Positions 15,466-38,689 of a DNA stretch of 40,379 nucleotides are shown in pieces; the first letter of the stretch is position 1, and each line of letters begins with the position of its first letter. This stretch comes from Methanobrevibacter sp. (GTDB taxonomy: Archaea > Methanobacteriota > Methanobacteria > Methanobacteriales > Methanobacteriaceae): the NCBI GenBank assembly GCA_016838945.1, contig JADLKP010000003.1:1-40379 (forward strand), written 5' to 3'. The notes below the pieces were generated by a model, which saw only the letters and a list, made by a program, of their open reading frames with translations, did no database searches and had not been told where the DNA came from. The position numbers and the translations under genes were made by a program.

Positions 15466-16977
15466 TTAAATAATAATTTTAAATGACTTTAATTTGCTAA
15501 TAAGAACCTTAATTTTTTTGCTTGGTTTTTTAGACTTTCTAAATACTTTAGTCAATTTCCAGCTATTGGAATTCAATATTTCACTATTCTTCCTTTTCAG
15601 TTTAGCATTTTCCCTTTTCAATTTATCAATCTGATTATCTTTTGCCTTTGCATCATTTTTAGGCATTATCTGATTCAAGTAATTCACTCTTGACTTTAGA
15701 TAATTGTTTTCCTCTATCAATTCCTCTTCTAAGCTTAGATCTATTGCCTTAACATTGAATTTATCTTCAATTATCTTATGCAATGTCTCTTTGGTAGATT
15801 TATAATCATCAATATAGGACTTGTATTTTATATCAAGGTTATCCAAAACACTATTCTCTTCACAAATAGCCCAGATGTCATTGCCGCTTCCCAAATAATC
15901 GGAATATTTGGAAGGGAGAAATGGATTTTTTTCAAAATAGCTTTTAGTTAATGAATCATTTACAATCAAGACATCTAATTTTGTAGTAATGTTTAAGAAT
16001 TCAAAAAGCGGAACCTTATCATTAATTATTATGTCTTTGTGAATATCCAAATTTTTAATGACATTTTTTAGGTTTCCACCGTCTTCATCATCTGATATGA
16101 ATAAATGAAGCTTTACTTTATGTTTTAAATCATCATCTAAAGATTCCATAGAATAGAATAAGGTTTCAAAGTTTCTCTTGGCTAGATAAGTGCCAAAATA
16201 ACCTAGATTAATGCATTCATCATCAACTTCATAGTCTGTTTCCTTTATATGATAATACTCTTCAGATAGGGTAGGATGGATTTTTATTTCGGACTTTTCC
16301 AAAACAAAACCCTCAATGTCATAAGGAAAGCCTGACAACATGATTTCTTGCTGATTTGGATTTGTAAAGATTATCTTATCTGCAAAAAGGTAAGCCAAAT
16401 ATTCTGCAATGAAATAAACGGTTTCTCCTTTTTTAATTAAGGGAAAATTTTTATTGTTGGCTTCATTCAACTCTTGGATTTTGCTATTTACTTGATTTAA
16501 GAATTCCTCATTTTTATAATGGTAAGACTCAGATTTTCCCCTTCTCTTGTTTTCAAGATTTACACGGATAGGATCTGAAAATTCGGCAATCCAAGTGGTT
16601 TCTGGGTGATTCATCTTATATTCGAATGCTAAAAAATGATTGGTTGTAGGGAAGCAGCGGGTTTTTAATGTTTTATATTCCTTATTTAAAGAGTCAATAG
16701 CTTTCATTCCATCTTTTCTAAACTTCTCCGAATTGTCTACAGAATCTGAATAGGGATTCATGTCAATGATGATTCTATTGTCTATCAAATCCTCTAAGAC
16801 TTGATTGAATTCTTCATCCAAGGCTCCTTTAAACTGTCCTTGGACTAAATCTATATCTTTTTTATCATTTAGTATTCTTTTGGCAAATACAATTCCACTT
16901 GTACTGGTTACAGGTGGAAACTTGGCAGCTATGACCAAATCCTCTGCACCTTTTTTATTTTCATCCTTTTTACTCAT
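15466..16977 (-). CDS. GT-B type (GT4-like) glycosyltransferase with coiled coil and C-terminal NSNSWKLTKVFRK tail
   Basis: Divergent GT-B layout: DLVIAAKFPPVTSTSGIVFAKRI, INLGYFGTYLAKRNFETLFYSM, LDVLIVNDS..NPFLPSKYSDYLGSGNDIWAI. ORF track begins at 16992; MSKKDENKKG at 16977 looks likelier. Confidence 0.65.
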   Translation of the reverse strand: MSKKDENKKGAEDLVIAAKFPPVTSTSGIVFAKRILNDKKDIDLVQGQFKGALDEEFNQVLEDLIDNRIIIDMNPYSDSVDNSEKFRKDGMKAIDSLNKEYKTLKTRCFPTTNHFLAFEYKMNHPETTWIAEFSDPIRVNLENKRRGKSESYHYKNEEFLNQVNSKIQELNEANNKNFPLIKKGETVYFIAEYLAYLFADKIIFTNPNQQEIMLSGFPYDIEGFVLEKSEIKIHPTLSEEYYHIKETDYEVDDECINLGYFGTYLAKRNFETLFYSMESLDDDLKHKVKLHLFISDDEDGGNLKNVIKNLDIHKDIIINDKVPLFEFLNITTKLDVLIVNDSLTKSYFEKNPFLPSKYSDYLGSGNDIWAICEENSVLDNLDIKYKSYIDDYKSTKETLHKIIEDKFNVKAIDLSLEEELIEENNYLKSRVNYLNQIMPKNDAKAKDNQIDKLKRENAKLKRKNSEILNSNSWKLTKVFRKSKKPSKKIKVLISKLKSFKIII

Positions 16978-17061
16978 AAAACCCCTGTCCAAATAAATAC
17001 TTATAATTATTCTTCATTCTTTCTAGCTAAATTATCACTTCTATCTTTTAATGAAAATGAT

Positions 17062-19573: not shown

Positions 19574-20578
19574 ATGATTCCAAAAGTAATGATAATTCTT
19601 GGAAGCGGATCTGATAAGGACATAGCAATGAAAGCTATTAAAATATTGGAAAAGCTCCAAATTTCATATAGTATAAAAGTTGCATCAGCACATAGAACCC
19701 ATGACAAAGTTAAAAAATTGGTTATAGATGCAACAAAAGAAGGTGTAGAAGTATTCATAGGAATTGCAGGATTGGCAGCTCACCTACCTGGTGCAATAGC
19801 TGCATACACCCACAGACCAGTTATTGGGGTTCCTGTTGATGGTGCAGTTGGTGGTCTTGATGCATTATATGCATGTGTGCAAATGCCCTTCCCTACAGCT
19901 GTAACTACCGTTGGAATCAATAGAGGAGATAATGCTGCAATACTTGCAGGGCAAATCATCGCAAGTTATGACGAAGCTGTTGCAGAAAGAATATCAGACC
20001 TTCGTGTTGAATATCAGAAAAAAGTTGAAAAAGGGGAAAAGGAAATTATAGAAAGCATTGAAGGTGAATTTTTCCAAAAAGACTTTTTAGCTGAAGAAAA
20101 TTATGAAAAAATCGAATTTGAGGAATTGGATGATACACCTGATGTAATGATACTTGCAGGAAGCTATTCAGATATGGAAATAGCTAAAAATGTGGCCATA
20201 TTACTTGAAAGAATGCAGATAGACTACAAACTTGATTATATTTCTCCAATAAGACATGCTAAGGACTTTGAATCTTACATGAGCAAAAGAAACAATGCAA
20301 AGTTATTCATAGCTATCAGTGGATTATCTGCTCTTGTAGCAGGATCTGTTGTTGCCCTTACCGAAAAGCCTGTAATAGGAGTTCCATGCTCTAAGAAATT
20401 AGAGGGCCAAGATGCTCTACTTACAATGGCAAACATGCCTCCAGGAGTACCTGTAGGAACAGTTGGAATCGATAATGGAAGAAATGCAGCAATTGTTGCA
20501 GGTGAAATCCTTGGAATATCCAATAAAAACATTGAAGGAAACCTAAAATGGATTAAATACAAAAATGCGGATTTATAA
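19574..20578 (+). CDS. purE: Phosphoribosylaminoimidazole carboxylase PurE, tandem-duplicated domain form
   Basis: Domain 1: PKVMIILGSGSDKDIAMKA..SAHRTHD..IGIAGLAAHLPGAIAAYTHRPVIGVPVD..VQMPFPTAVTTVGINRGDNAAILAGQI. Domain 2: PDVMILAGSYSDMEIAKN..SPIRHAK..IAISGLSALVAGSVVALTEKPVIGVPCS..ANMPPGVPVGTVGIDNGRNAAIVAGEI. Confidence 0.93.
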   Translation: MIPKVMIILGSGSDKDIAMKAIKILEKLQISYSIKVASAHRTHDKVKKLVIDATKEGVEVFIGIAGLAAHLPGAIAAYTHRPVIGVPVDGAVGGLDALYACVQMPFPTAVTTVGINRGDNAAILAGQIIASYDEAVAERISDLRVEYQKKVEKGEKEIIESIEGEFFQKDFLAEENYEKIEFEELDDTPDVMILAGSYSDMEIAKNVAILLERMQIDYKLDYISPIRHAKDFESYMSKRNNAKLFIAISGLSALVAGSVVALTEKPVIGVPCSKKLEGQDALLTMANMPPGVPVGTVGIDNGRNAAIVAGEILGISNKNIEGNLKWIKYKNADL

Positions 20579-20632
20579 CAATTATAAAAATCTCCTATAA
20601 GAATAATGACAAATAAAATGATGAGTGGTTTT

Positions 20633-21898
20633 ATGACTAAAGATATTATTAATGTGATTCAAATTGATAAAGAGGTAGATGCAGAATATGAAGCTGCAAA
20701 AATACTTCGTGAATACCCAAAGGAAACTGTAATGTTAAATAATGTGAAAGGATACGATATTCCTGTAGTGTCTGGAATATGCAATACCAGAGAGAAAATA
20801 GCTCAATCCCTCGGTTGTCAGGTTGATGAGATACTTTATAAAATTATTGATGGAATGAACAATCCTACCCCAGTCACAAAATTCATTGACTTGAAGGATG
20901 AATACAATAGCAAAAGAGTGGATTTAGGTAAAATCCCTATTCTAACTCATTATAAACGTGATGGGGGAGCATATATAACTGCAGGAGTTGTATTCGCTAA
21001 AGATCCTGAAACAGGTATTCAAAACGCTTCAATTCATAGAATGCTGGTTCTTGAAAAGAACAAATTGGCTATTCGTATCGTGCCAAGAAACCTTTATACC
21101 TATTTCCAAAAGGCAAAGGATATGGGCAAAGACTTGGACATTTCAATAGCTATTGGTATGGAACCTTCCATTCTTCTTGCTTGTACAACTTCAATACCAA
21201 TAGATGCTGATGAGATGGAAGTTGCAAACAGATTCAAAGATGGAAACCTTGAACTTGTAAGCTGTAAAAATGGTATTAAAGTTCCAGAGGCCGACATAAT
21301 CTTCGAAGGAAAAATCCTAATAGATGAAACCGCTCCTGAAGGTCCATTTGTAGACTTGACCGACACTTATGATTATGTGAGAGAGGAACCTGTAATAAAA
21401 TTAAGCAAGATGTACATTAAAAAGGAAAATCCAATGTACCATGCAATCTTGCCTGCAGGATTCGAGCATAAATTGCTTCAAGGTATGCCACAGGAACCAA
21501 GAATATTCTCTGCAGTGAAAAATACCGTTCCTACCGTACAGAATGTAGTGCTAACAGAAGGAGGCTGCTGTTGGTTACATGCAGCTGTTTCAGTTAAAAA
21601 GCAGACTGAAGGAGATGGAAAAAACATAATTATGGCTGCACTTGCTGCACATCCATCATTAAAGCATGTGGTGGTTGTAGATGAAGATGTGAACATTTTC
21701 GACCCACAGGATATTGAATATGCAATAGCCACAAGAGTTAAAGGTGATGATGATATAATTATCGTGCCTAAAGCAAGAGGTTCCTCTTTAGATCCAAAAG
21801 CTTCTGAAATTGATGGAACAACCACTAAAGTTGGTGTGGATGCTACCAAATCAATTTTAGAGCCTGAAAAATTCGAAAGAGTTAGTTTTAGTGAATAA
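20633..21898 (+). CDS. UbiD-family decarboxylase; candidate archaeal anhydromevalonate phosphate decarboxylase
   Basis: [119 protein letters not shown] track starts at 20606; MTKDIIN at 20633 is an alternative start. Confidence 0.87.
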
Positions 21899-21995: not shown

Positions 21996-22964
21996 ATGGA
22001 AAAAGTAGGTGTTATAGGAGCTGGAAGTTTAGGAACTGCCCTAGCTCAAACAATTTCTGAAAATGTTGAAGAGGTTTATTTGCATCTAAGGAGAGAGGAG
22101 ATAAAAGATGCGATAAATGAAACCGGATACAACAGCGAGTACTATCCCAATACAAAATTGAAGGACAATATAATTGCAACTACTGACTTGAATGATTTGA
22201 AAGATTGCACTATCATATTTTTAGCAATACCATCATCTGCCTTTAGAACATGCCTAGAAAGTCTAAAAGGATTGGTTAAAGATGATGTGATCCTTGTTAC
22301 AACTGCAAAGGGAATAGAATATCCTTCATTGAAAAGCATGGGTAAAATCATAGAGGAATACTTTGATGATAACTATGTAGCATTGTCTGGACCTAATTTT
22401 GCATCTGAAATAGTATTGAACCTTGCAACAGTTTCAAACATTGCATCAAAAAGCAGTGAAAATTCTAAAAGAGTTAAATCCGTATTGGCAACTCCACAGT
22501 TTAAGGTAAAAATCATCGATGATGTCATCGGCCTTGAAATTTGCGGTGTCGTTAAAAACATCAATGCAATAGCTAATGGTATCTGTGAAGGAATGAATAT
22601 CAATGAAAATGCAAGATTTGCTGTTTTGACAAAAGGCTTTGACGAGACAAAAAATATCCTAGGAAAAATTGGAGGCCAGGAATCCACTGCCGGAGAGTAT
22701 TGTGGATTTGGAGATCTGGTAATGACTTCAACATCTCTGGAAAGTAGAAATCATACACTTGGTATGCTATACGGTCAAAGACTTATAGTTGATGAAAAGG
22801 CAAGTGGAATAGTCTTTGAAGGTAAAAATTCAATTATGGCAATAAAGGACATTTGCGACAAAAACAATATTGAAAGCGTTACAGTCAATTTCGTTTATGA
22901 TGTTATCGTTAGGCAGATAAAACCAACAATAGCTTTTAACAGCTTATGGGAAAAAATAGAATAA
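21996..22964 (+). CDS. gpsA: NAD(P)-dependent sn-glycerol-3-phosphate dehydrogenase (bacterial GpsA type)
   Basis: VGVIGAGSLGTALAQTISEN, FLAIPSSAFR, TTAKGIEYPS, ALSGPNFASEI, GLEICGVVKNINAIANGICEGMNINENARFAVLTKGFDE, GEYCGFGDLVMTSTSLESRN. Confidence 0.88.
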   Translation: MEKVGVIGAGSLGTALAQTISENVEEVYLHLRREEIKDAINETGYNSEYYPNTKLKDNIIATTDLNDLKDCTIIFLAIPSSAFRTCLESLKGLVKDDVILVTTAKGIEYPSLKSMGKIIEEYFDDNYVALSGPNFASEIVLNLATVSNIASKSSENSKRVKSVLATPQFKVKIIDDVIGLEICGVVKNINAIANGICEGMNINENARFAVLTKGFDETKNILGKIGGQESTAGEYCGFGDLVMTSTSLESRNHTLGMLYGQRLIVDEKASGIVFEGKNSIMAIKDICDKNNIESVTVNFVYDVIVRQIKPTIAFNSLWEKIE

Positions 22965-22992: not shown

Positions 22993-25617
22993 ATGGTTAA
23001 ATTTTCAATAGTCATTCCTGTTTATAATTCTGGAAAATATCTTAAGGAATGTTTAGACAGCATCATAAACCAAACATTTAAGGATATTGAAATAATCTGT
23101 ATAGATGATGGCTCTACAGACAATTCCCTAAGCATATTAAAGGCATATGAAGAAAAGGACAATCGCATCAAAGTTTATTCTCTAGAAAACAAGGGAGTGG
23201 GTGCAGCAAGAAACTATGGTATGGAACTTGCTAAAGGAGAATACATCAACTTTCTCGACAGTGACGATAAATTATCATCCAATGCTTTAAAGGCTGTGAA
23301 CAAATTCTTTGAAAACAATGAAGACATTGATGTTATTGCCATACCTATACTCTTTTTCAGTGAATACAATCATGAACTAAACTATAAATTCAATTTGGAA
23401 GAGGATTCAAGAGCAATAGACTTGAATAAAAACTATGAAGCTATTCAGGCATCTGTAAGTTCTTCCTTTATTAAAGCTGATTCCATAGGAGATTTAAGAT
23501 TCAATGAAGAATTATCCTACAATGAAGATTTGATATTCATCAATAAGCTTCTGCTTGAAACCAAGAAAATAGGCTTGGTTAAAGATGCAGCATACTTCTT
23601 TAGAAGAGGCAATGAAAACTCATTGACAAACACTGCAAAGGGCAGAAAGAAATTTTTTGTCTACAGATTAAAATGTTTAAGGGAACTTATCGATTATGCA
23701 TTAGAAAAAGATGGTGCTGTTCCTAAATTCATACAAGGCATAATTACATACAGTCTAAAGTCATTTGAATCCATAGCTGATTTACCTGAAATTTTATCAA
23801 AGGAAGAAATTGATGAATTTTGGGAAATCCTATACGATGTTTTGGATTACATTGATGAAGACATTCTTACACACCCCCAAATAATCGGTCCAAAAATAGA
23901 TTATTTCGGTGATTTCCTGGTTTACTTAAAAAATAGAAGGGATTTCCGTATTGAAAAAGATGAAGAAAACTTCACTTGCTTGAAAACAGGTAATTATACA
24001 ATCAATAGACTTGAAAAACATAGAATATTCTTTGACATTATAGAACTTAAAGATGGATTTTTAAACCTATGTGGAAATTATGTCAGCTCTTGCAAAAAGG
24101 ATGTTTTAAGTATAGAAGCAATTAAAGTTCATAAAGGTAAAAAAGAAAGGTTTATTGGAAAATATGTTGAATATCCTAAAACCCCTCGTGAAACAAGAAG
24201 ATTGCTAGGTATTGACTGGAGATTTGACTATGGTTTTGAATTCAAGATACCTATTGACAAAAAAGGAGAAACAAAAATCAATTTCCATATGATTCTTGAT
24301 GAAGATGGCAATAAGGTGCTTATGAAAAACAATATCACATTCAGGAAATTTGCAGAAATATCAAGATTCAGCCATTACTACATTAGAAATTCACAATTAT
24401 TGGCTGCTGTTAACAACTCTTTCCTTATAATGCCATATAGTGCTAAAAAGGCCTTGCGTTATGAATTGACATCTATAAAATCCATGCTTATCAAAAGACC
24501 TAAATACTGGGTAAGGTCAATTTCCTACAGATTATTGTACTTGCTGTCCAGGCCAATAATGAAAAACAAAAAAATCTATTTATTTATGGATAGAAGAGAC
24601 AACACAGGAGACAATGGAGAGCATTTATTCAGATATGCTGCAGATCAAAATGATGGAATTTCAAAATATTTCGCATTGGAAAAGGATTGCAAAGAATTTA
24701 AAAAGCTTAAAAAGGAATATGGAAAGAAAATTCTTAGTTTTGGTTCAGTTAAACATAAATTTATCTACATGTTTACAGAAAAGGTAATCTCTTCACAGGG
24801 TTATAAAAATCATTTGAATCCCTTTGCAGACCTAAATCTAAAATTGGTTCAGGGCATTTCCTCTCCACCTGTTTATTTCCTGCAGCATGGTGTCGGTAAG
24901 TATGATATGCGAAGTTGGCTTAGAAAGTATGACATTAACTTTTCACTCATATTGACAGTTTCAGACTTGGATCAGGAGGCCTTTGTCAAAACATACAATT
25001 ATGATGAGGAAATCATTCAGGAATTGGGTTTTCCAAGATTTGACAATTTGACAAATGAAAACCTTAAAAAGGAAATAGTAGTCATACCTACTTGGAGAAA
25101 GGGAATCAGAGATGAAGAAGACTTTTTAAGTTCTGAATACTTTATGAGATGGAATAATTTATTGAATGATGAGAGATTGATTGAATCTGCCAATGAAAAG
25201 GGTTATAAAATTGTTTTCAAGCCTCATCCAAATTCAATGAAATTTTTGCATTTGTTCAATACTGACAATGTGGAAGTTGATACATATAGAAGATTCCATG
25301 ATATCTTATGTGAATCTGCCTTAATGATTACTGATTATTCATCTGTCAATTTTGATTTCGCATACCTTAAAAAGCCAATAATCTATTATCAATATGGAAA
25401 TGATTACCACTTTGAAGGAGATTCCTTAATTGATGACGATAAAAGTACTTTTGGTGCCATTGAAAAAGATGAAGATGAATTGATTGATAAAGCCATTGAA
25501 TATATTGATAACGATTGTAAAATGGAAGAGGAATATATTGAAAAGGTTGATGGATTCTTTAAATATACTGATAAAAACAATTGCAAGCGTGTTTATGATT
25601 GGATCTTAAAACACTAA
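22993..25617 (+). CDS. Fusion: N-terminal GT2 glycosyltransferase + accessory domain + C-terminal CDP-glycerol glycerophosphotransferase (TagF-like)
   Basis: N-terminal FSIVIPVYNSGKYLKECLDSIINQTFKDIEIICIDDGSTDNSLSIL; C-terminal KVISSQGYKNHLNPF, YFLQHGVGKYD, FKPHPNSMKFL, LMITDYSSVNFDFAYLKKPIIYYQYG. Confidence 0.92.
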   Translation: MVKFSIVIPVYNSGKYLKECLDSIINQTFKDIEIICIDDGSTDNSLSILKAYEEKDNRIKVYSLENKGVGAARNYGMELAKGEYINFLDSDDKLSSNALKAVNKFFENNEDIDVIAIPILFFSEYNHELNYKFNLEEDSRAIDLNKNYEAIQASVSSSFIKADSIGDLRFNEELSYNEDLIFINKLLLETKKIGLVKDAAYFFRRGNENSLTNTAKGRKKFFVYRLKCLRELIDYALEKDGAVPKFIQGIITYSLKSFESIADLPEILSKEEIDEFWEILYDVLDYIDEDILTHPQIIGPKIDYFGDFLVYLKNRRDFRIEKDEENFTCLKTGNYTINRLEKHRIFFDIIELKDGFLNLCGNYVSSCKKDVLSIEAIKVHKGKKERFIGKYVEYPKTPRETRRLLGIDWRFDYGFEFKIPIDKKGETKINFHMILDEDGNKVLMKNNITFRKFAEISRFSHYYIRNSQLLAAVNNSFLIMPYSAKKALRYELTSIKSMLIKRPKYWVRSISYRLLYLLSRPIMKNKKIYLFMDRRDNTGDNGEHLFRYAADQNDGISKYFALEKDCKEFKKLKKEYGKKILSFGSVKHKFIYMFTEKVISSQGYKNHLNPFADLNLKLVQGISSPPVYFLQHGVGKYDMRSWLRKYDINFSLILTVSDLDQEAFVKTYNYDEEIIQELGFPRFDNLTNENLKKEIVVIPTWRKGIRDEEDFLSSEYFMRWNNLLNDERLIESANEKGYKIVFKPHPNSMKFLHLFNTDNVEVDTYRRFHDILCESALMITDYSSVNFDFAYLKKPIIYYQYGNDYHFEGDSLIDDDKSTFGAIEKDEDELIDKAIEYIDNDCKMEEEYIEKVDGFFKYTDKNNCKRVYDWILKH

Positions 25618-25706: not shown

Positions 25707-26474
25707 ATGATTGGTGTGATATTGGCTGCTGGAATGGGTATAAGATTAATGCCACTTACAAAAGACATTCCAAAGGCTTTACTGAAAATTAACGACATGA
25801 CTTTAGTTGAAAGAATGATTAAAAACTGCATTGATGCAGGAATAAGTAAATTCATAGTAGTTGTAGGATATAACAGAGACAAGGTCATTGATTTATGTCC
25901 TGAATTGGAGGAAAAGTATGACATTGAAATAATGGCCGTCATTAACGAAAAGTATGATGTCACCAACACTTCCGTATCAACTTATCTTGCAAGCAAATAT
26001 ATAGAGGAAAATGATTTGGATGACTTCATTTTAGTTAATGGAGATAATGTAGTTGACCCTGAAATCATAAAAAGATTGGCTAAATCCATCAATACTGGAA
26101 TGATAATCGATAACTTTAAGGAACTGAATGAAGAATCATTTAAATTGATTATTGATGATGAATCCTTCAATGAAGATAAAACAATAGCTAACGGTAAAAT
26201 AAATTCAATTGGAAAAGGACTGGACATCCCATCTTCAACAGGGGAATTTATTGGTGTTTCTAAAGTTAAGGCTGATGATGTTGCAGAATTCAATAGAATT
26301 TTAGAGGGATTGATTGAAGAGGACCCTCAAAATTACTATGATTTTGCATATAAGGATTTAAGTCTTATTAAGACCATTGATTTCGTATTGACAAATGGAC
26401 TCAAATGGACTGAAATAGATGATCACACCGATTGGGAAAATGCCCAATTTCTCGTCAAGGAACTTGAAGGCTAA
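25707..26474 (+). CDS. Nucleotidyltransferase family protein (sugar-phosphate / LicC-like cytidylyltransferase type)
   Basis: GVILAAGMGIRLMPLTKDIPKALLKINDMTLVERMIKNCIDAGISKFIVVVGYNRDKV; NEKYDVTNTSVSTYLASKYI; LVNGDNVVDPEII. Confidence 0.85.
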   Translation: MIGVILAAGMGIRLMPLTKDIPKALLKINDMTLVERMIKNCIDAGISKFIVVVGYNRDKVIDLCPELEEKYDIEIMAVINEKYDVTNTSVSTYLASKYIEENDLDDFILVNGDNVVDPEIIKRLAKSINTGMIIDNFKELNEESFKLIIDDESFNEDKTIANGKINSIGKGLDIPSSTGEFIGVSKVKADDVAEFNRILEGLIEEDPQNYYDFAYKDLSLIKTIDFVLTNGLKWTEIDDHTDWENAQFLVKELEG

Positions 26475-26516
26475 TCGATATTGAAAAATATCCAAATAAT
26501 CCAAAAAGGTAGAAAT

Positions 26517-27596
26517 ATGATAAAAAACATTGACGGCAGAGACAGAATATTCTATCTAGATGAAGTTAGGGCTTTGGCCATCATATTGGTTATATTATGC
26601 CATATAATAAGAGAATTTTGCCAAATTCGTCCATCAGGATCATTAGGTTGGTTATCTGTAGGAGTATTTATTGATTTGGGAGTTATGGGAGTTCCATTGT
26701 TTTTAATGATAAGCGGTTCACTGCTATTGAACAGAGAATATGACCTGCCAGACTTCCTAAAGAGAAGATTTACAAGAATTTTGATTCCATTCATATTTTG
26801 GGCCTTGCTTCTTCCTGTCTATAAAATGATAGTCAACAACGATCCAACACCTTATCTGACATTGTTCCTTGACAGACAGTACTGGTTCATTTATATGTTG
26901 ATAGGGGTTTATTTGTTCCTGCCTATAATCAACTCATTTATCAGAGAATATAAAATGAAAGGAGTTGAATATTTACTGGTATTGTGGCTAATCACCATTA
27001 CTTTGAATACATTCGGATTATACCCATTCCATGCATTGGAATTAAGCTATTTCGCAGGTTATGTAGGATTTGTCATACTGGGTTATTATTTAACCAATAA
27101 GGAATTCAAATTAAGTGACAAGCATATGATATGGCTAGGCCTGATATTGTTTATAGTCTTTACGCTCATAAATTTACACTTTACCCTAACCCATTACAAA
27201 ATTGGAACTTTCAGTGCTGGTGCATTGAAATACTATCACTATGAAACCCTTGTTGTTGCACTTCAAGCAACCGGCGTATTCCTGATGATTGAATACTATG
27301 CCAAATATTGTTCAAAACATAAAGGCACTTTCAGAAACAAGATCTATTCATTTTTCAAGGATACATTCATGTCTAAAATAATATATTCATTAAGCATCTG
27401 CAGCTATGGTATGTATCTGGTCCACTATTTCGTAATCTATGGAATAAGATGGGTAAGCAACAACATATTCCCTATTTACAGTGCAAAACCTGTCATAATG
27501 CCTTTGGTATGGATTGTAGTTGTATTCTTCAGTTGGCTTATAATATATGTTTTAAGTAAAATCCCTTATTTAAAAGGAATAAGTGGTGCACATTAA
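26517..27596 (+). CDS. Acyltransferase family 3 membrane protein (putative O-acetyltransferase)
   Basis: RIFYLDEVRALAIILVILCHIIREF, multiple TM helices, WFIYMLIGVYLFLPIIN, SYGMYLVHYFVIYG. ORF track starts at a TTG (26481); ATG 26517 preceded by aaaggt is likelier. Confidence 0.87.
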   Translation: MIKNIDGRDRIFYLDEVRALAIILVILCHIIREFCQIRPSGSLGWLSVGVFIDLGVMGVPLFLMISGSLLLNREYDLPDFLKRRFTRILIPFIFWALLLPVYKMIVNNDPTPYLTLFLDRQYWFIYMLIGVYLFLPIINSFIREYKMKGVEYLLVLWLITITLNTFGLYPFHALELSYFAGYVGFVILGYYLTNKEFKLSDKHMIWLGLILFIVFTLINLHFTLTHYKIGTFSAGALKYYHYETLVVALQATGVFLMIEYYAKYCSKHKGTFRNKIYSFFKDTFMSKIIYSLSICSYGMYLVHYFVIYGIRWVSNNIFPIYSAKPVIMPLVWIVVVFFSWLIIYVLSKIPYLKGISGAH

Positions 27597-27704: not shown

Positions 27705-28925
27705 ATGGATAAGAAAACTTTAATCAAAGACTTAAAATACATAATACTAACTTGTGCCAAATATAGTGCACGAGCATTATACTACATAGGAACTCATGTT
27801 CTTAGTCCAAAAGACAATATTATCCTCTTTGAATCTAGTAATGGCCGTAATTATACTGGAAATCCGAGATATGTTTATGAAGAAATCCTAAATCAAGGCT
27901 TAGAGAATGAACTTAAGTGTGTATGGGTCTTCATGCATCCGGAAAAACAAAAAATACCTGGAAATGGAATCAAGGTTAAAAGATCCTATTTCAAGTTTTT
28001 ATACTATGCTATTGTAAGTGGTGCCTGGGTATTTGATTCCAGACACCTTTACTATCTCAAGAAAAATAAGAAGACAAAATACATTCAAACATGGCACGGC
28101 ACTCCTCTTAAGAAACTGGGACTTGATATGGATTACATAGACATGAGTGGAAACCAGAACATTGAAAAGTACCATGATGAATTTATTAAAAACAGTGCCG
28201 ACTGGCAATATCTGATTTCACAAAATAGCTATTCAAGCGAGATATTCAAAAGGGCATTTGCCTTTAATGGAGAAATGCTTGAAATCGGATACCCCCGCAA
28301 TGACATTTTGATAAATAACAACAATGCAGATCATATAGATAAAATCAAAAGCAAATTCAATGTTCCAAAGGACAAGAAACTAATTCTTTATGCGCCAACT
28401 TGGAGAGACAATGAATACTATCAAAAGGGAGAATATAAGTTTGCAACCGAAATGGATTTCGATGCCATGAAAGAGGCATTATCCGATGAATATGCCCTTT
28501 TCGTTAAATATCACTATCTTGTCAAGGAAAACATAGACTGGAAAAAATATGATGACTTTATAATAGAATGTGATGCAGAGTGGGACATTCAGGAACTGTA
28601 TTTGATTTCCGATGTTTTAATTACAGACTATTCCTCTGTAATGTTTGACTATGCCATACTTAGAAGGCCTATGATGTTTTTCGCATATGACTTGGAGCAT
28701 TACAAAGACAGCTTGAGGGATTTCTATTTCGATATGTTTGAAGAGGTTCCAGGACCTATTGTTAAAAGTACAGAAAAACTCATTGAAGAAATCAAAAAAC
28801 TAAAAGTGGATGATTATGAACTAAAATATGGTCAAAAGTATGATGATTTCCAAAAAAAGTATAATGAATTTGATAAGGGAATAGCATCTAAAACCATAAT
28901 TGAGTTAATAAGAAATAGAAATTAA
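27705..28925 (+). CDS. CDP-glycerol glycerophosphotransferase family protein (TagB/TagF-like)
   Basis: DNIILFESSNGRNYTGNPRYVYEEIL, YIQTWHGTPLKKLGLDMDY, LILYAPTWRDNEYY, YLISDVLITDYSSVMFDYAILRRPMMFFAYD. Confidence 0.93.
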   Translation: MDKKTLIKDLKYIILTCAKYSARALYYIGTHVLSPKDNIILFESSNGRNYTGNPRYVYEEILNQGLENELKCVWVFMHPEKQKIPGNGIKVKRSYFKFLYYAIVSGAWVFDSRHLYYLKKNKKTKYIQTWHGTPLKKLGLDMDYIDMSGNQNIEKYHDEFIKNSADWQYLISQNSYSSEIFKRAFAFNGEMLEIGYPRNDILINNNNADHIDKIKSKFNVPKDKKLILYAPTWRDNEYYQKGEYKFATEMDFDAMKEALSDEYALFVKYHYLVKENIDWKKYDDFIIECDAEWDIQELYLISDVLITDYSSVMFDYAILRRPMMFFAYDLEHYKDSLRDFYFDMFEEVPGPIVKSTEKLIEEIKKLKVDDYELKYGQKYDDFQKKYNEFDKGIASKTIIELIRNRN

Positions 28926-29013: not shown

Positions 29014-31194
29014 ATGGATGAAGTGAATTCAATTGATTATAAGGAATATGAATTGGAGAAAGGTTTTTCCGTTAGGAAAAGTAAAGAATATAATGCTCTT
29101 TTTAAAAATGGGAAACCTAATGTTGTATTAAAGGCTAATCAAAATGTCTACAATAGAATATTTGATTTTCAACCTAAGGCCCTATCCATATCCATGAAGG
29201 AAGACAAGGTCATTATAGAGTTTGCCGTTTTAAGCAAAAAATTCCAAAATTATGACTTAAGAAAATACCATGTCAATTTGGGTTACAATAATTACGATTT
29301 TACAAAAAAATCCGAAAACAGATACCTGGTGGAAATACCATACAACAGCATAAACATTTCTGGCCGTTCCGCTGGAGTATATATTGAATACATTGATGAA
29401 AATGGATTCAGCTATAAAAAGAAATTCCTTTCTATGAGAAGTACCTATAAGAGGGGGAAAAACAAGCTTTTCAAAAAGTTAGGCATTTACGATGAACGTA
29501 GAGACCATAACCTATATTACAGTGATTTGATCTACTTTGAAAACCACAGCATATTCCTGTATGAAACCTGGAAGGGATTTTTATCATTGGCATATAGGGA
29601 AATAAATGTGACAGATGATATTGAAGAGCAAAAAAAGATAAGGTCAGCTTATAAGGAATATATGGCCGATTCAAAGAAAGGAAAAAACACTCCTTCAATA
29701 TTGCTATATGAAAAGTTTTGCGGAAAATACGAAGAAAGTGCCAAATATGTTTATGAAAGATTGATAGACGATGGCTGGGAAAACGTCTATTTTATACTCA
29801 GTAAAGACAGCGAATTTCAAAATAAAGTTCCTGAAAAGTATAGGAAGAACCTGATTGAAAAATATTCCAAAAAACATTACTATGAGTACTTTAATGCTAA
29901 GGCATTCATTACTACAGAATCAATAAACCATGTGATTGACTTGACAACATATAATGCATTGACACGTAAAAGGCAGTACTGGAAAGATTATTACTACATC
30001 TTCCTACAGCATGGAGTCATGTATGCCTATTCCTTGAAAGGTAGATGGGACTTTGAAAAAGGTGGAGGATTCGGTGATAATTCTTATGTGGTTGTTTCCT
30101 CTGAAACTGAGGCGAATCATTTTATAGAGGATGGAAATTTCGATAGGGAAGATTTGATTAAATGCGGACTTCCAAAATTCGACCATTCCATACAAAATGA
30201 AGATGCAGATAAGATCCTCATCATGCCAACCTCAAGAAACTTCGAATATTCAACCATAAGAGATGACACTCTAAACTCAACATACTATAATTTTTCAAAA
30301 AACATCATAGAAAGTGTGCCTGATGATTTAAAAGATAAGATAGTGTTCATTCCTCACCCTTTAGTGAATGCAATCTTTGGAGAAACCGATTTGGACAAAT
30401 ATATGCCAGCCGAATACAGTTATGATGAATTATTAAAAAATACCCGTTTGCTAATAACAGATTACTCCTCAATCTCATACGATGCATTCTATAGAGGAGC
30501 CAATGTAATTTTCGCTTGGATGGAAAAGGAAATGTGTCTTGAAAATCTAGGTATAGATTTAAAATTAAATGAGGATAATTCTTTTGCAGACATCGCATAT
30601 GATTATGAAAGCCTGACTGAATTGATTTCAGATAATTATTATGGAATTCATAGCCAGGAAAACATTGAAAAGTACAAGGATATAGTTGAATTCCATGATG
30701 GAAAGAATACCGAAAGATTCATAGGATATGTTTATGATACAAACATATTCAGCGAAAGGGCTGGAAAACATGACATCAACGATGCAATAGTGGAAGGAGT
30801 TGAAGATCGCCCATATACCGGTAAAGCAATAGGAATTCCAAAGATTAAAGTAAGCTTTGATGGTAAAAAACTTATTAAAGGCCTTGATTTTGAAGTAAAA
30901 TATCATGACAACCTATCCATTGGTACTGCCAAGTGCGAAATAAAGGGACTGGGCATATACCATGGAACCAAATTCGTTAATTTTGAAATCAAGAAAAACA
31001 TAAAGAAAACCAAAACAAAACTTGATGAAGACCATTTAACCGTTAAGGATGGAGATAAAATACTTATAGAAGGAGAGGATTACTCTATTGAAAAGATAGA
31101 TTATAGTAGCGTAGGGTTGAAAAAAATAGCTATTAACGGTATGGGAGAATATATCGGCCAAAAGGGTATCCTAATCGATGTATCAAAAAATTAA
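29014..31194 (+). CDS. CDP-glycerol glycerophosphotransferase (TagF-like) with C-terminal Ig-like/surface-repeat domains
   Basis: YYIFLQHGVMYAYSLKGRW, KIVFIPHPLV, LLKNTRLLITDYSSISYDAFYRGANVIFAW; C-terminal PYTGKAIGIPKIKVSFDGKKLIKGLDFEVKYHDNLSIGTAKCEIKGLGIYHGTKFVNFEI plus a degenerate second copy. Confidence 0.9.
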   Translation: MDEVNSIDYKEYELEKGFSVRKSKEYNALFKNGKPNVVLKANQNVYNRIFDFQPKALSISMKEDKVIIEFAVLSKKFQNYDLRKYHVNLGYNNYDFTKKSENRYLVEIPYNSINISGRSAGVYIEYIDENGFSYKKKFLSMRSTYKRGKNKLFKKLGIYDERRDHNLYYSDLIYFENHSIFLYETWKGFLSLAYREINVTDDIEEQKKIRSAYKEYMADSKKGKNTPSILLYEKFCGKYEESAKYVYERLIDDGWENVYFILSKDSEFQNKVPEKYRKNLIEKYSKKHYYEYFNAKAFITTESINHVIDLTTYNALTRKRQYWKDYYYIFLQHGVMYAYSLKGRWDFEKGGGFGDNSYVVVSSETEANHFIEDGNFDREDLIKCGLPKFDHSIQNEDADKILIMPTSRNFEYSTIRDDTLNSTYYNFSKNIIESVPDDLKDKIVFIPHPLVNAIFGETDLDKYMPAEYSYDELLKNTRLLITDYSSISYDAFYRGANVIFAWMEKEMCLENLGIDLKLNEDNSFADIAYDYESLTELISDNYYGIHSQENIEKYKDIVEFHDGKNTERFIGYVYDTNIFSERAGKHDINDAIVEGVEDRPYTGKAIGIPKIKVSFDGKKLIKGLDFEVKYHDNLSIGTAKCEIKGLGIYHGTKFVNFEIKKNIKKTKTKLDEDHLTVKDGDKILIEGEDYSIEKIDYSSVGLKKIAINGMGEYIGQKGILIDVSKN

Positions 31195-34960: not shown

Positions 34961-37900
34961 TTATATAATTTTAAGTTTTAAAGCTGTTCTGTAGTCAACT
35001 TTTCCACTGACTTTTAAATTATGAGCTTTTTGGAACTTTTTGACAGCCCATTTAGTGTACTTGAAGAACCATCCGTCCACTAATAAGTGGTGGCCATTGT
35101 ACCTTATGTAGAAATGGTGCTTTTTCAAAGCCCTTTGAATCTTTTTGACGAAGAGCCTGTTTTTGCTTCCTTGGGAAACAGTATCAAACTTAACAGTTAT
35201 CTTAGCTTTTTTGCTTACTTTGTTGAAGGTTTTGTCTCCAGCATAGGAGATAACTGCATTTTTGGTTCCAACTTTGCTTAATTTAGTAAGTTTGAAAGTT
35301 GCTACACCTTTAGCGTTTGTTTTAGCACTGTATGTTTTGCCGTTGACCTTTAAAGTAACTTTTTTACCTTTCAATGCTTTTCCATTATTGTCTTTTAATG
35401 TTACAGCATAGTTTTTGGTTTTTTGGAAGTACTTAAAGGTTTTAGCTTTTGCAGTTAATTTTACATTGACTTTCTTTACAGTGAATTTTGTGCTTTTTGT
35501 GCTAGCATTGTATTTATCGGTTTGCTTGAAAGTTGCTTTTGCAGTGTAGGTTCCAGCAGCAAGGCCGGAAACTTGTGCACTTCCTTTACCGTTAACAACC
35601 TTTACCTCAATATGCTTACCGCCAATGTCTACACCAACATTTCCGCTGAATCCAGCATCAGTGCCAATGGAGACAGTGGCCTTTTCACCATAGCTAATGC
35701 TTTTGACCTTTATGCTTAATTTAGGATCTGCTGGCTCAGGAGCTTTTGCAACATTGAAGCTTACAGAGCTTTCATCTGCATTAAAGGTATCGTCACCGTT
35801 GAATGTGACGGTAGCAAGATAGTCGCCAGGAGCTATATCATCGCTAATGGTAACATTTCCAGAACCATCTACAATGGTTAATGGGTAAACAGCATTGGAA
35901 TTGTTCAATTTTACATTAGCTTCACCGTTTAAGGTTTCATTAGCATTGATGACAGCAACAGGCTTTTGGCCTTCAGTTACGTTATCAACTTTAATGCTAA
36001 AGTTAGGATTGATCTTGTTTACATTGAAGATTGTGGAAGTTTCGTAAGGAGTGAACTTCTTGTCACCGATGAATTTTACAGTAGCGCTGTATTCACCAGC
36101 AGCTAAACCTTCAAATGTGGTTTTTCCATATCCGTTCTTAACAAGCACCTTTTGAGGCATAGGGTTGCCTTTCACATAAACGCTGACATAACCGCTGAAT
36201 ACCTTATTTCCGGTAATTTCAACGGTAGCCTTATCGCCTACGTTAATATCTTCAACATTAATGCTTAAAGCAGGATCTGCCTTTTTGACATGGAAGATGC
36301 TTGAAGTTTCAACAGGATTGAACTTATCATCTCCAATGAACTTGACAGTTGCCTTATGCACACCAGGGTTTAAGTTTCCGAGTGATGCCTTAGCATGGCC
36401 GTTTTTGACAAAGACCTTTTGAGGCATAGGATTGCCTTTCACATAAACGCTGACATAACCGCTGAAAGACTTTTTGGCAGTGATATCTGCAACAGCCTTT
36501 TCGCCATAAGTGATGTCATCTACATCGATTCTTAAGAAAGAATCGTATCTGTTTACATTGAAGACAGTGGAAGTTTCACCTGGGGTGAACTTATCGTCAC
36601 CAGCATACTTTACAGTAGCAGAGTACTTTCCAGCAGCTAATCTGTTAAAGGTAGCTTTAGCATGCCCCTTTTTAACAAGCACTTTTTGAGGCATAGGGTT
36701 TCCTTTCACATAAACGCTGACATAACCGCTGAAAGACTTTTTGGCAGTGATATCTGCAACAGCCTTTTGACCAACATTGATGTCTTTAACATCAATGCTT
36801 AAAGCAGGATTAATTTTCTTAACATTGAAGACGGTTGAAGTCTCATATGGAACAAACTTATCGTCACCATTAAACTTGACAGTAGCAGAGTACTTTCCAG
36901 CAGCTAAGCCACTGAATGTGGTCTTTCCATACCCGTTCTTTACAAGAACCTTTTGAGGCATAGGGTTGCCTTTCACATAAACAGAAACGTAACCGCTGAA
37001 AGACTTTTTAGCGGTAATCTCTGCAGTTGCCTTTTCTCCTACATTAATGTCTTTAACATCAATGCTTAAAGCAGGATCATATCTGTTAACATTGAAGATA
37101 GTTGAAGTCTCATATGGAGCAAACTTATCGTCACCAGCATACTTGACAGTAGCCCTATGCTCACCAGGAGCTAAAACTCCTAATGACACTTTAGCATGCC
37201 CATTTTTAACAAGCACTTTTTGAGGCATAGGATTACCATTCAAGTATACGCTGACATAGCCAGTGAAAGATTTTTTAGCAGTGATGTCTGCAACAGCCTT
37301 TTGGCCCGCTGCAACATCTTTAATGTCAATGCTTAAAGCAGGATCAATTTTCTTAACATTGAATACAGTTGAAGTCTCACCTGGAGCAAACTTATCATCA
37401 CCATTAAACTTGACAGTAGCAGAGTACTTTCCAGCAGCTAATCTGTTAAAGGTAGTTTTACCATGCCCATTTTTAACAAGCACTTTTTGAGGCATAGGAT
37501 TACCATTCAAGTAAACTGAAACGTAACCGCTGAAATGCTTATCAGCACTGATTTCTGCAACAGCTTTTTCACCAACGTTAATATCATTAACATCAATTCT
37601 TAAAGCTGCATCTTCTCTACCAACATTAAAGGTAGTTGAAGCTTCACTTGGTGCAAATTTCTTATCACCAGCATACTTGACTGTAGCTCTGTGTTCACCA
37701 GGAGCTAAAACACCCAATGACACTTTAGCATAGCCGTTTTTGACTAAGACATTATAAGAAACAGGAGAGCCTTTCACATAAAGACTAACGTGGCCAGTGA
37801 AATGCTTATCAGCACTGATTTCTGCAACAGCATTTTGGCCTTTTTTGACATCTCCAACATGAATGTCTAAAGCAGGGTCTTCTCTGCCAACTTTAAAGGT

Positions 37901-38689
37901 GGTGGAAGCTTCGCCTGGAGCGAATTTCTTATCACCAGCATACTTTACAGCAGCACTATATTCACCAGAAGATAAGCCATTAAAAGTCACTTTTCCATAA
38001 CCGTTTTTAATAAGAACCTTTTGATATTGAGAAGAACCTTTCAAGTAAACAGTGACATAGCCACTTAATTCCTTATCACCAGTGATAATTCCAGTAGCTT
38101 TTTCACCGACATTGACATCAGGTACATCAATGCTTAAAGCAGGATCCATTCTGTTAACCTTAAAGCTTGTAGTTTTAATTTCCGCTTTGTAGCATAAACT
38201 GCCGTAATATACAGCTTTAACAGTGTATTTTCCTTCAGGCAAAGCTTTGCTTAAAGTTATTTTTCCATAACCGTTTTTAACAGATACCTTTTGTGGCAAG
38301 GTGTATCCCACTACATTGACGTAAACATTGCCGCTGAATGATTTTTTAGCATTGATTTCTACAGTTGGCTTTTCACCAATCTTGACATCATTAACTTTAA
38401 TGCTTAATCCAGGGCTTGCTGTATCCAATTTTTCATTTTCGTCATTACTTGGTCTTTGTGTGTCCTTATCTTTGATGTCACCACTTTGAGCGCCATCAGC
38501 ATTCTTAGTCTTTTGGTCCTTATTGCTATCAGTGACATTAACATCTTTCACTTTAATGTCACTGTCAGTGTCGTGGCTAATATATTTAGTATTGTTATGT
38601 TCTGGATTTAGATCAACAGCACTTAAAGGTGCTAAACAGTACATAGCAATAATAAATAGACAAGCAACTTTTACAGCTAATCCTTTCAT
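34961..38689 (-). CDS. Secreted adhesin-like protein: signal peptide, ~11 Ig-like ~89-aa repeats, one further Ig-like domain, C-terminal PG_binding_1-like domain
   Basis: Signal peptide MKGLAVKVACLFIIAMYCLAPLSAVD; repeats of type DPALSIDVKDINVGEKA..AKKSFSGYVSVYVKGNPMPQKVLVKNGYGK..GKYSATVKFNGDDKF..ETSTVFNV; C-terminus LFVKKIQRALKKHHFYIRYNGHHLLVDGWFFKYTKWAVKKFQKAHNLKVSGKVDYRTALKLKII. Confidence 0.92.
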   Translation of the reverse strand: MKGLAVKVACLFIIAMYCLAPLSAVDLNPEHNNTKYISHDTDSDIKVKDVNVTDSNKDQKTKNADGAQSGDIKDKDTQRPSNDENEKLDTASPGLSIKVNDVKIGEKPTVEINAKKSFSGNVYVNVVGYTLPQKVSVKNGYGKITLSKALPEGKYTVKAVYYGSLCYKAEIKTTSFKVNRMDPALSIDVPDVNVGEKATGIITGDKELSGYVTVYLKGSSQYQKVLIKNGYGKVTFNGLSSGEYSAAVKYAGDKKFAPGEASTTFKVGREDPALDIHVGDVKKGQNAVAEISADKHFTGHVSLYVKGSPVSYNVLVKNGYAKVSLGVLAPGEHRATVKYAGDKKFAPSEASTTFNVGREDAALRIDVNDINVGEKAVAEISADKHFSGYVSVYLNGNPMPQKVLVKNGHGKTTFNRLAAGKYSATVKFNGDDKFAPGETSTVFNVKKIDPALSIDIKDVAAGQKAVADITAKKSFTGYVSVYLNGNPMPQKVLVKNGHAKVSLGVLAPGEHRATVKYAGDDKFAPYETSTIFNVNRYDPALSIDVKDINVGEKATAEITAKKSFSGYVSVYVKGNPMPQKVLVKNGYGKTTFSGLAAGKYSATVKFNGDDKFVPYETSTVFNVKKINPALSIDVKDINVGQKAVADITAKKSFSGYVSVYVKGNPMPQKVLVKKGHAKATFNRLAAGKYSATVKYAGDDKFTPGETSTVFNVNRYDSFLRIDVDDITYGEKAVADITAKKSFSGYVSVYVKGNPMPQKVFVKNGHAKASLGNLNPGVHKATVKFIGDDKFNPVETSSIFHVKKADPALSINVEDINVGDKATVEITGNKVFSGYVSVYVKGNPMPQKVLVKNGYGKTTFEGLAAGEYSATVKFIGDKKFTPYETSTIFNVNKINPNFSIKVDNVTEGQKPVAVINANETLNGEANVKLNNSNAVYPLTIVDGSGNVTISDDIAPGDYLATVTFNGDDTFNADESSVSFNVAKAPEPADPKLSIKVKSISYGEKATVSIGTDAGFSGNVGVDIGGKHIEVKVVNGKGSAQVSGLAAGTYTAKATFKQTDKYNASTKSTKFTVKKVNVKLTAKAKTFKYFQKTKNYAVTLKDNNGKALKGKKVTLKVNGKTYSAKTNAKGVATFKLTKLSKVGTKNAVISYAGDKTFNKVSKKAKITVKFDTVSQGSKNRLFVKKIQRALKKHHFYIRYNGHHLLVDGWFFKYTKWAVKKFQKAHNLKVSGKVDYRTALKLKII
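36150..37560 (-). repeat. Block of highly similar ~267-bp coding repeats within the adhesin-like gene
   Basis: 'gaggcataggnttncctttcacataaacgctgacataaccgctgaaagactttttggcagtgatatctgcaacagcctttt' occurs at 36421 and 36688 (267 bp apart) with close variants at neighbouring repeats. Confidence 0.9.

Follow-up and report, generated by a model that had tools for sequence, protein, structure and literature searches.

We suggest that the glycerol-3-phosphate dehydrogenase GpsA of a gut-type methanogen (Methanobrevibacter) is the first enzyme of a dedicated CDP-glycerol module, a reading that we hold with a probability of about three in four. For this module, we infer the activities, the substrates of the nucleotidyltransferase, co-transcription of the genes and the polymer; the scheme is as follows. 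GpsA would reduce dihydroxyacetone phosphate (DHAP) to sn-glycerol-3-phosphate (G3P), a LicC/PntC-type cytidylyltransferase (NTPT) would convert G3P and CTP to CDP-glycerol, and the PF04464 (TarF/TagF-type) enzymes encoded in the same cluster would attach glycerol phosphate to a glycan. The surface polymer built in this way would be teichoic-acid-like or contain phosphoglycerol, and membrane lipids would stay on G1P from EgsA. The enzyme as such and the idea of a teichoic-like polymer in this genus were already known, and the new part is the conserved pairing of GpsA with a LicC/PntC-type enzyme across methanogens without TagD. The open-access literature searched held no published archaeal GpsA/CDP-glycerol module, GpsA-NTPT pair or archaeal glycerol-phosphate polymer.

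GpsA and its gene neighborhood

The window, a stretch of 40,379 nucleotides, is the entire contig C98; the genome to which it belongs measures 2.46 Mb, is 99.55% complete and has Methanobrevibacter as its nearest named relatives, which confirms an archaeal host. The following features of the window enter the argument:

19574-20578, + strand: PurE-like protein, AIRC stretch present twice; conserved upstream chromosomal anchor
20606-21898, + strand: UbiD-family decarboxylase; second conserved anchor, immediately upstream of gpsA
21996-22964, + strand: GpsA, NAD(P)H-dependent sn-glycerol-3-phosphate dehydrogenase, 322 aa; would catalyze the DHAP to G3P step (from profiles, residues and model)
22993-25617, + strand: GT2-TagF, fusion of GT2 (PF00535) and TagF-like Glyphos_transf (PF04464, 2.8e-44), 874 aa, with HG and TDYSS motifs
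25707-26474, + strand: NTPT, LicC/PntC-type nucleotidyltransferase (NTP_transferase, COG1213-like), 255 aa; proposed CTP:G3P cytidylyltransferase
26481-27596, + strand: membrane acyltransferase family 3 (PF01757), listed start TTG; possible role in polymer O-acylation
27705-28925, + strand: TarF-type CDP-glycerol glycerophosphotransferase, 406 aa; carries WHGT and TDYSS
29014-31194, + strand: third TagF-type protein, more divergent, 726 aa
31362-32507, + strand: second acyltransferase family 3 gene

From gpsA onward, these genes form a collinear run in the order gpsA, GT2-TagF, NTPT, acyltransferase, TarF-type, third TagF-type and second acyltransferase, the last of which closes the run. The two anchors upstream of gpsA are kept in the window's genus and in the genome G067; the PurE-like protein is not thought to be a pathway member.

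The gpsA reading frame is unbroken from ATG to TAA. Its product contains both G3P dehydrogenase domains (N- and C-terminal) and the bacterial C-terminal domain, with Pfam matches to PF01210 (135.6 bits, 1.9e-39), PF07479 (115.8 bits, 2.3e-33) and PF20618 (56.9 bits, 3e-15), and with 265.6 bits it passes the cut-off of 257 of the NCBIfam model for NAD(P)H-dependent G3P dehydrogenase (NF000942). The closest solved structures are those of Thermotoga maritima and Coxiella GpsA (E ~1e-43), and an AlphaFold model (pLDDT 91) matches the Coxiella enzyme (3k96) with a TM score of 0.90. The two lysines quoted in the earlier note, K105 (TTAKGI) and K187 (VVKNI), are invariant, as are N134, N188, D240, R251 and N252, in 16 homologues down to 35% identity, which bears out the impression of intact signature motifs. 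Judged by its motifs, this ORF is a full-length, catalytically complete GpsA. In plasmid records, homologues were solely bacterial and of less than 60% identity.

The position of gpsA directly before GT2-TagF was likewise confirmed; the stop codon ends at 22964, the next ATG stands at 22993, preceded by AAAGGAG, and the gap measures 28 nt. No terminator-like site was found on the + strand between the two genes, in a terminator/sigma-70 scan that performed at chance level and is uninformative on archaeal promoters. The idea that GT2-TagF is the telling neighbor, however, held only locally. GT2-TagF lies between gpsA and NTPT in the window and in G004 (L095), whereas in most relatives NTPT follows straight after gpsA; in G007, GT2-TagF lies beside gpsA, the contig then ends, and GT2-TagF probably separates GpsA from NTPT in this genome as well. 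The conserved partner of GpsA is NTPT.

On the - strand of the window, two further genes were observed. One (15466-16992) encodes a 508-aa protein with no Pfam matches amid glycosyltransferase genes and has homologues near GpsA in two other loci (L087 and L089); the other (34961-38689) encodes a surface-type protein of 1242 aa, in which twelve bacterial Ig-like stretches are combined with a PG_binding_1 domain at the C-terminus.

Bacterial GpsA serves phospholipid synthesis, and gpsA adjoins the gene of a UbiD-family decarboxylase here, archaeal members of this family including an enzyme of the isoprenoid pathway; both points would fit a GpsA that feeds G3P into membrane lipids of a bacterial or mixed type. 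We regard such a role as very improbable, given that EgsA, the archaeal G1P dehydrogenase, is present in the window's genome (G000:C327), that GpsA-NTPT pairs occur elsewhere without UbiD, and that PlsY (PF02660), the lipid-synthesis enzyme searched for, gave no match in the window's genome or in 20 relatives, with positive controls. A function in glycerol catabolism or redox balance can be given hardly any weight either. The GpsA reaction is reversible in principle, but glycerol kinase (FGGY, PF00370), the catabolic enzyme searched for, found no match in the window's genome or the 20 relatives, again with positive controls, and the genomic context is one of glycan synthesis.

Pairing of GpsA with a LicC/PntC-type nucleotidyltransferase

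GpsA-NTPT loci were gathered in two ways, from GpsA matches and from NTPT matches, a pair being defined as both genes on one strand within 4 kb, a limit of our choice. Among the 55 distinct pairs obtained, 52 are at most 150 bp apart or overlap, and they come from Methanobacteriaceae, Methanothermobacter-like families, Methanoculleus and other Methanomicrobiales, and one planctomycete contig. Gene order varies by lineage, with GpsA-NTPT in Methanobacteriaceae and NTPT-GpsA in families f2 and f3 and in Methanomicrobiales. In f2/f3, the two genes overlap (L079-L081), and Methanoculleus and other Methanomicrobiales carry a PF04464-NTPT-GpsA cassette (L157-L163, L288-L289). The pairwise distance matrices of GpsA and NTPT correlate with r = 0.96 (0 of 2000 permutations as high), and with r = 0.89 in the main clade alone. 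Some members of the genus (L101, L102, L106-L108) keep NTPT in the cluster but at a distance of 5-10 kb from GpsA, the neighbor of GpsA being a TagD-like/oxidoreductase fusion instead; in the sister group with Msm-type GpsA, NTPT is not beside GpsA.

The role that the earlier note had proposed for GpsA, a precursor supplier for TagF-type enzymes, is thus supported by a neighborhood conserved in two archaeal orders, together with the co-occurrence with TarF-type enzymes described below, the failure to find PlsY and GlpK and the presence of EgsA; the key partner, NTPT, had not been linked to GpsA there.

In the same-genus genome G011, the NTPT frame (L097:12181-13064) breaks just before the last catalytic motif, WTEIDDHTDW, which resumes in another frame; either NTPT is a pseudogene here or the finished sequence contains an error. 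At the same locus, an opposite-strand, repetitive, N/S-rich and adhesin-like ORF (L097:10254-12180) lies between gpsA and NTPT in place of GT2-TagF. On the planctomycete contig, from a Planctomycetota MAG (L165:2278-3985), the gene immediately after that of a divergent GpsA encodes an NTPT homologue, and no PF04464 match lies nearby.

NTPT matches PF00483 (NTP_transferase) with 54 bits, and LicC is its best sequence match of known structure. When its model (pLDDT 96) was compared with known folds, Foldseek ranks 1-5 were taken by PntC and LicC, with PntC 6pd2 at the top and LicC 1jyk next; both are CTP-using cytidylyltransferases, which form CMP-AEP and CDP-choline, respectively. UTP- and dTTP-using enzymes, of the UDP- and dTDP-sugar kind, come close behind them, and some relatives have the TagD-like domain fused to an oxidoreductase beside GpsA; both observations favor a scenario in which the CDP-glycerol of GpsA and the PF04464 enzymes comes from another cytidylyltransferase of the genome and NTPT makes something else (a nucleotide sugar, CMP-AEP or a CDP-choline-like product). 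We consider this scenario unlikely, as NTPT pairs with GpsA, often with overlapping genes, in one bacterium and in archaea of two orders, and as nothing TagD-like in the window's genome scores above 32 bits. The TagD model TIGR01518 gave no match over its cut-off in the window's genome; its sole match (32 bits) is a 166-aa protein (G000:C83) of the size of archaeal CoaD/RibL, and we therefore see no ordinary TagD in this genome. With EgsA present, and PlsY, GlpK and full-strength TagD not detected, a lipid or glycerol-catabolic role of GpsA is unlikely, and NTPT ranks as the best candidate for the G3P cytidylyltransferase of the window's genome, its partnership with GpsA being the only pointer to G3P as the acceptor.

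The fusion noted above consists of a TagD-like domain (116 bits, under the cut-off) and a Gfo/Idh/MocA oxidoreductase, and lies 3' of GpsA in L062 (574-1878) as well as in L101, L102 and L106-L108; in L062 it is followed by a class V aminotransferase. It possibly represents a second CDP-polyol route. A bacterial-type TagD over the cut-off was seen in the Methanobrevibacter MAG G014, on a small contig (C223, L061) separate from the small contig that carries GpsA (C254, L031); both contigs are probably bacterial contamination.

In Clostridium sp. C2-6-12 (L168:8870-14405), an NTPT homologue (29% identity) lies between a PF04464 gene and phosphonate genes, which encode a fusion of PEP mutase with a cytidylyltransferase domain, a phosphonopyruvate decarboxylase and an AEP transaminase; this cluster is the phosphonate counterpart of the GpsA module. 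Since the supplier at this locus would make 2-aminoethylphosphonate and the one in the window G3P, gene order suggests that a transferase of the PF04464 family may form a unit with a LicC/PntC-type enzyme, the precursor supplier being exchangeable and the upstream enzyme setting the substrate.

TarF/TagF-type transferases and the candidate product

The TarF-type enzyme (27705-28925) matches PF04464 with 364.5 bits over positions 7-365 of 367, with its WHGT and TDYSS motifs present, and can be aligned from end to end with solved TagF structures (324 bits). With 344.4 bits, it misses the cut-off of the NCBIfam TarF equivalog (550 bits) and is hence termed TarF-type rather than a TarF equivalog.

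Co-occurrence with GpsA was counted in 140 genomes of the family, a PF04464 match being termed strong TarF-type at a best E <= 1e-100. GpsA is present in 48 of the 50 genomes with a strong match and in 13 of the 90 with a weaker match or none (77 have neither); the corresponding Fisher p of ~7e-23 is inflated by shared ancestry, the genomes not being phylogenetically independent. The strong match comes without GpsA in two genomes, G003 and G089, whose assemblies are fragmented and reach 68% and 86% completeness, respectively. In the genera of mixed content (g9, g13, g16 and g17), GpsA occurs solely in genomes with a strong transferase.

As to the end product, two divergent PF04464 enzymes in the window and several GT2 and acyltransferase genes, as in capsule loci, would also fit single phosphoglycerol decorations on glycans, on pseudomurein-associated polysaccharide or on glycoproteins. 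This variant of the last step is compatible with the module, but the TarF-type enzyme aligns over its full length with a TagF polymerase, and wall phosphate is reported to be high in M. ruminantium (PMC2812497). Single decorations are therefore a possible, if doubtful, alternative to a teichoic-type chain.

Ancestry of GpsA and comparison with known systems

In a tree of 78 sequences, methanogen GpsA (the main and Msm types of Methanobacteriaceae, f2/f3 and Methanomicrobiales) forms one group (100/99), from which Archaeoglobi-like GpsA (100/100) and the bacterial sequences are separate; the tree is unrooted. Upon removal of two long branches, support for the methanogen group rose to 100/100. 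A clade joining methanogens with the sampled Bacillota was rejected (p-AU 0.0013), while one joining methanogens with Archaeoglobi is compatible with the data (p-AU 0.44). A recent transfer of GpsA from Firmicutes was rejected by the tree and the AU test, the Bacillota sampling representing the phylum of Clostridium without Bacilli. The Firmicutes affinity raised in the earlier note thus did not survive. Of the things it had set against its own proposal, a deep archaeal inheritance is what the tree gives, and the context is biosynthetic, not catabolic. GpsA falls in one old methanogen clade; as the root was not inferred, an old transfer into methanogens and loss elsewhere are indistinguishable.

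On balance, we lean towards an ancient CDP-glycerol module shared by methanogens of two orders, in which a LicC/PntC-type enzyme would take the place of TagD and both enantiomers would be made, G1P for lipids and G3P for the polymer. This would include Methanoculleus-type methanogens, which are not known to have pseudomurein. Archaeal GpsA is usually discussed solely within the debate on archaeal and bacterial membrane lipids. If our reading is correct, it gains a non-lipid job, and its presence in methanogens says little about mixed membranes; in addition, the missing enzyme is given a testable identity, a LicC/PntC-type G3P cytidylyltransferase. GpsA of Methanobacteria, including a M. ruminantium sequence, was covered by Yokobori et al. 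2016 (PMC5059525), who deemed a bacterial transfer likely, and Coleman et al. 2019 (PMC6431249) found archaeal GpsA to be sporadic.

The proposed module follows the same G3P to CDP-glycerol to PF04464 logic as the Gram-positive wall teichoic acid pathway (GpsA - TagD/TarD - TagB/TarF/TagF). It differs in the absence of full-strength TagD from this genome, in a candidate cytidylyltransferase of another, unrelated type (LicC/PntC), and in its host, an archaeon with G1P lipids. With LicC and PntC (COG1213-like), NTPT shares the fold and the glycine-rich and GD..EID motifs at an identity of ~20%, but its genomic partner GpsA implies G3P rather than phosphocholine or 2-aminoethylphosphonate as the substrate. 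Another COG1213-type enzyme, Caulobacter CpgD, makes a CDP-C3 compound and was set beside TagD by its authors (PMC12275187); it uses phosphoglycerate for a sphingolipid, whereas NTPT would use glycerol-3-phosphate for a glycopolymer, and G3P is not among the known COG1213 substrates listed in that paper. Archaeoglobus GpsA (1txg) is an archaeal member of the same dehydrogenase family, with a TM score of 0.84 to our GpsA model, but belongs to a separate clade (~28% identity to the nearest reference), and in the loci examined neither NTPT nor a PF04464 match adjoins it.

A further known system comes from the window's own genus. M. ruminantium is a rumen methanogen whose surface is of vaccine interest. 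In 2010, Leahy et al. (PMC2812497) inferred cell wall glycopolymers from teichoic-type genes, the teichoic-acid homologues of strain M1, and from wall phosphate reported at teichoic-acid levels; their main text names neither GpsA nor a CDP-glycerol-forming enzyme. A 2020 operome paper (PMC7772410) gave the names tagF and tagD to some M1 genes. The module proposed here would put the high wall phosphate reported for M. ruminantium on a genetic footing.
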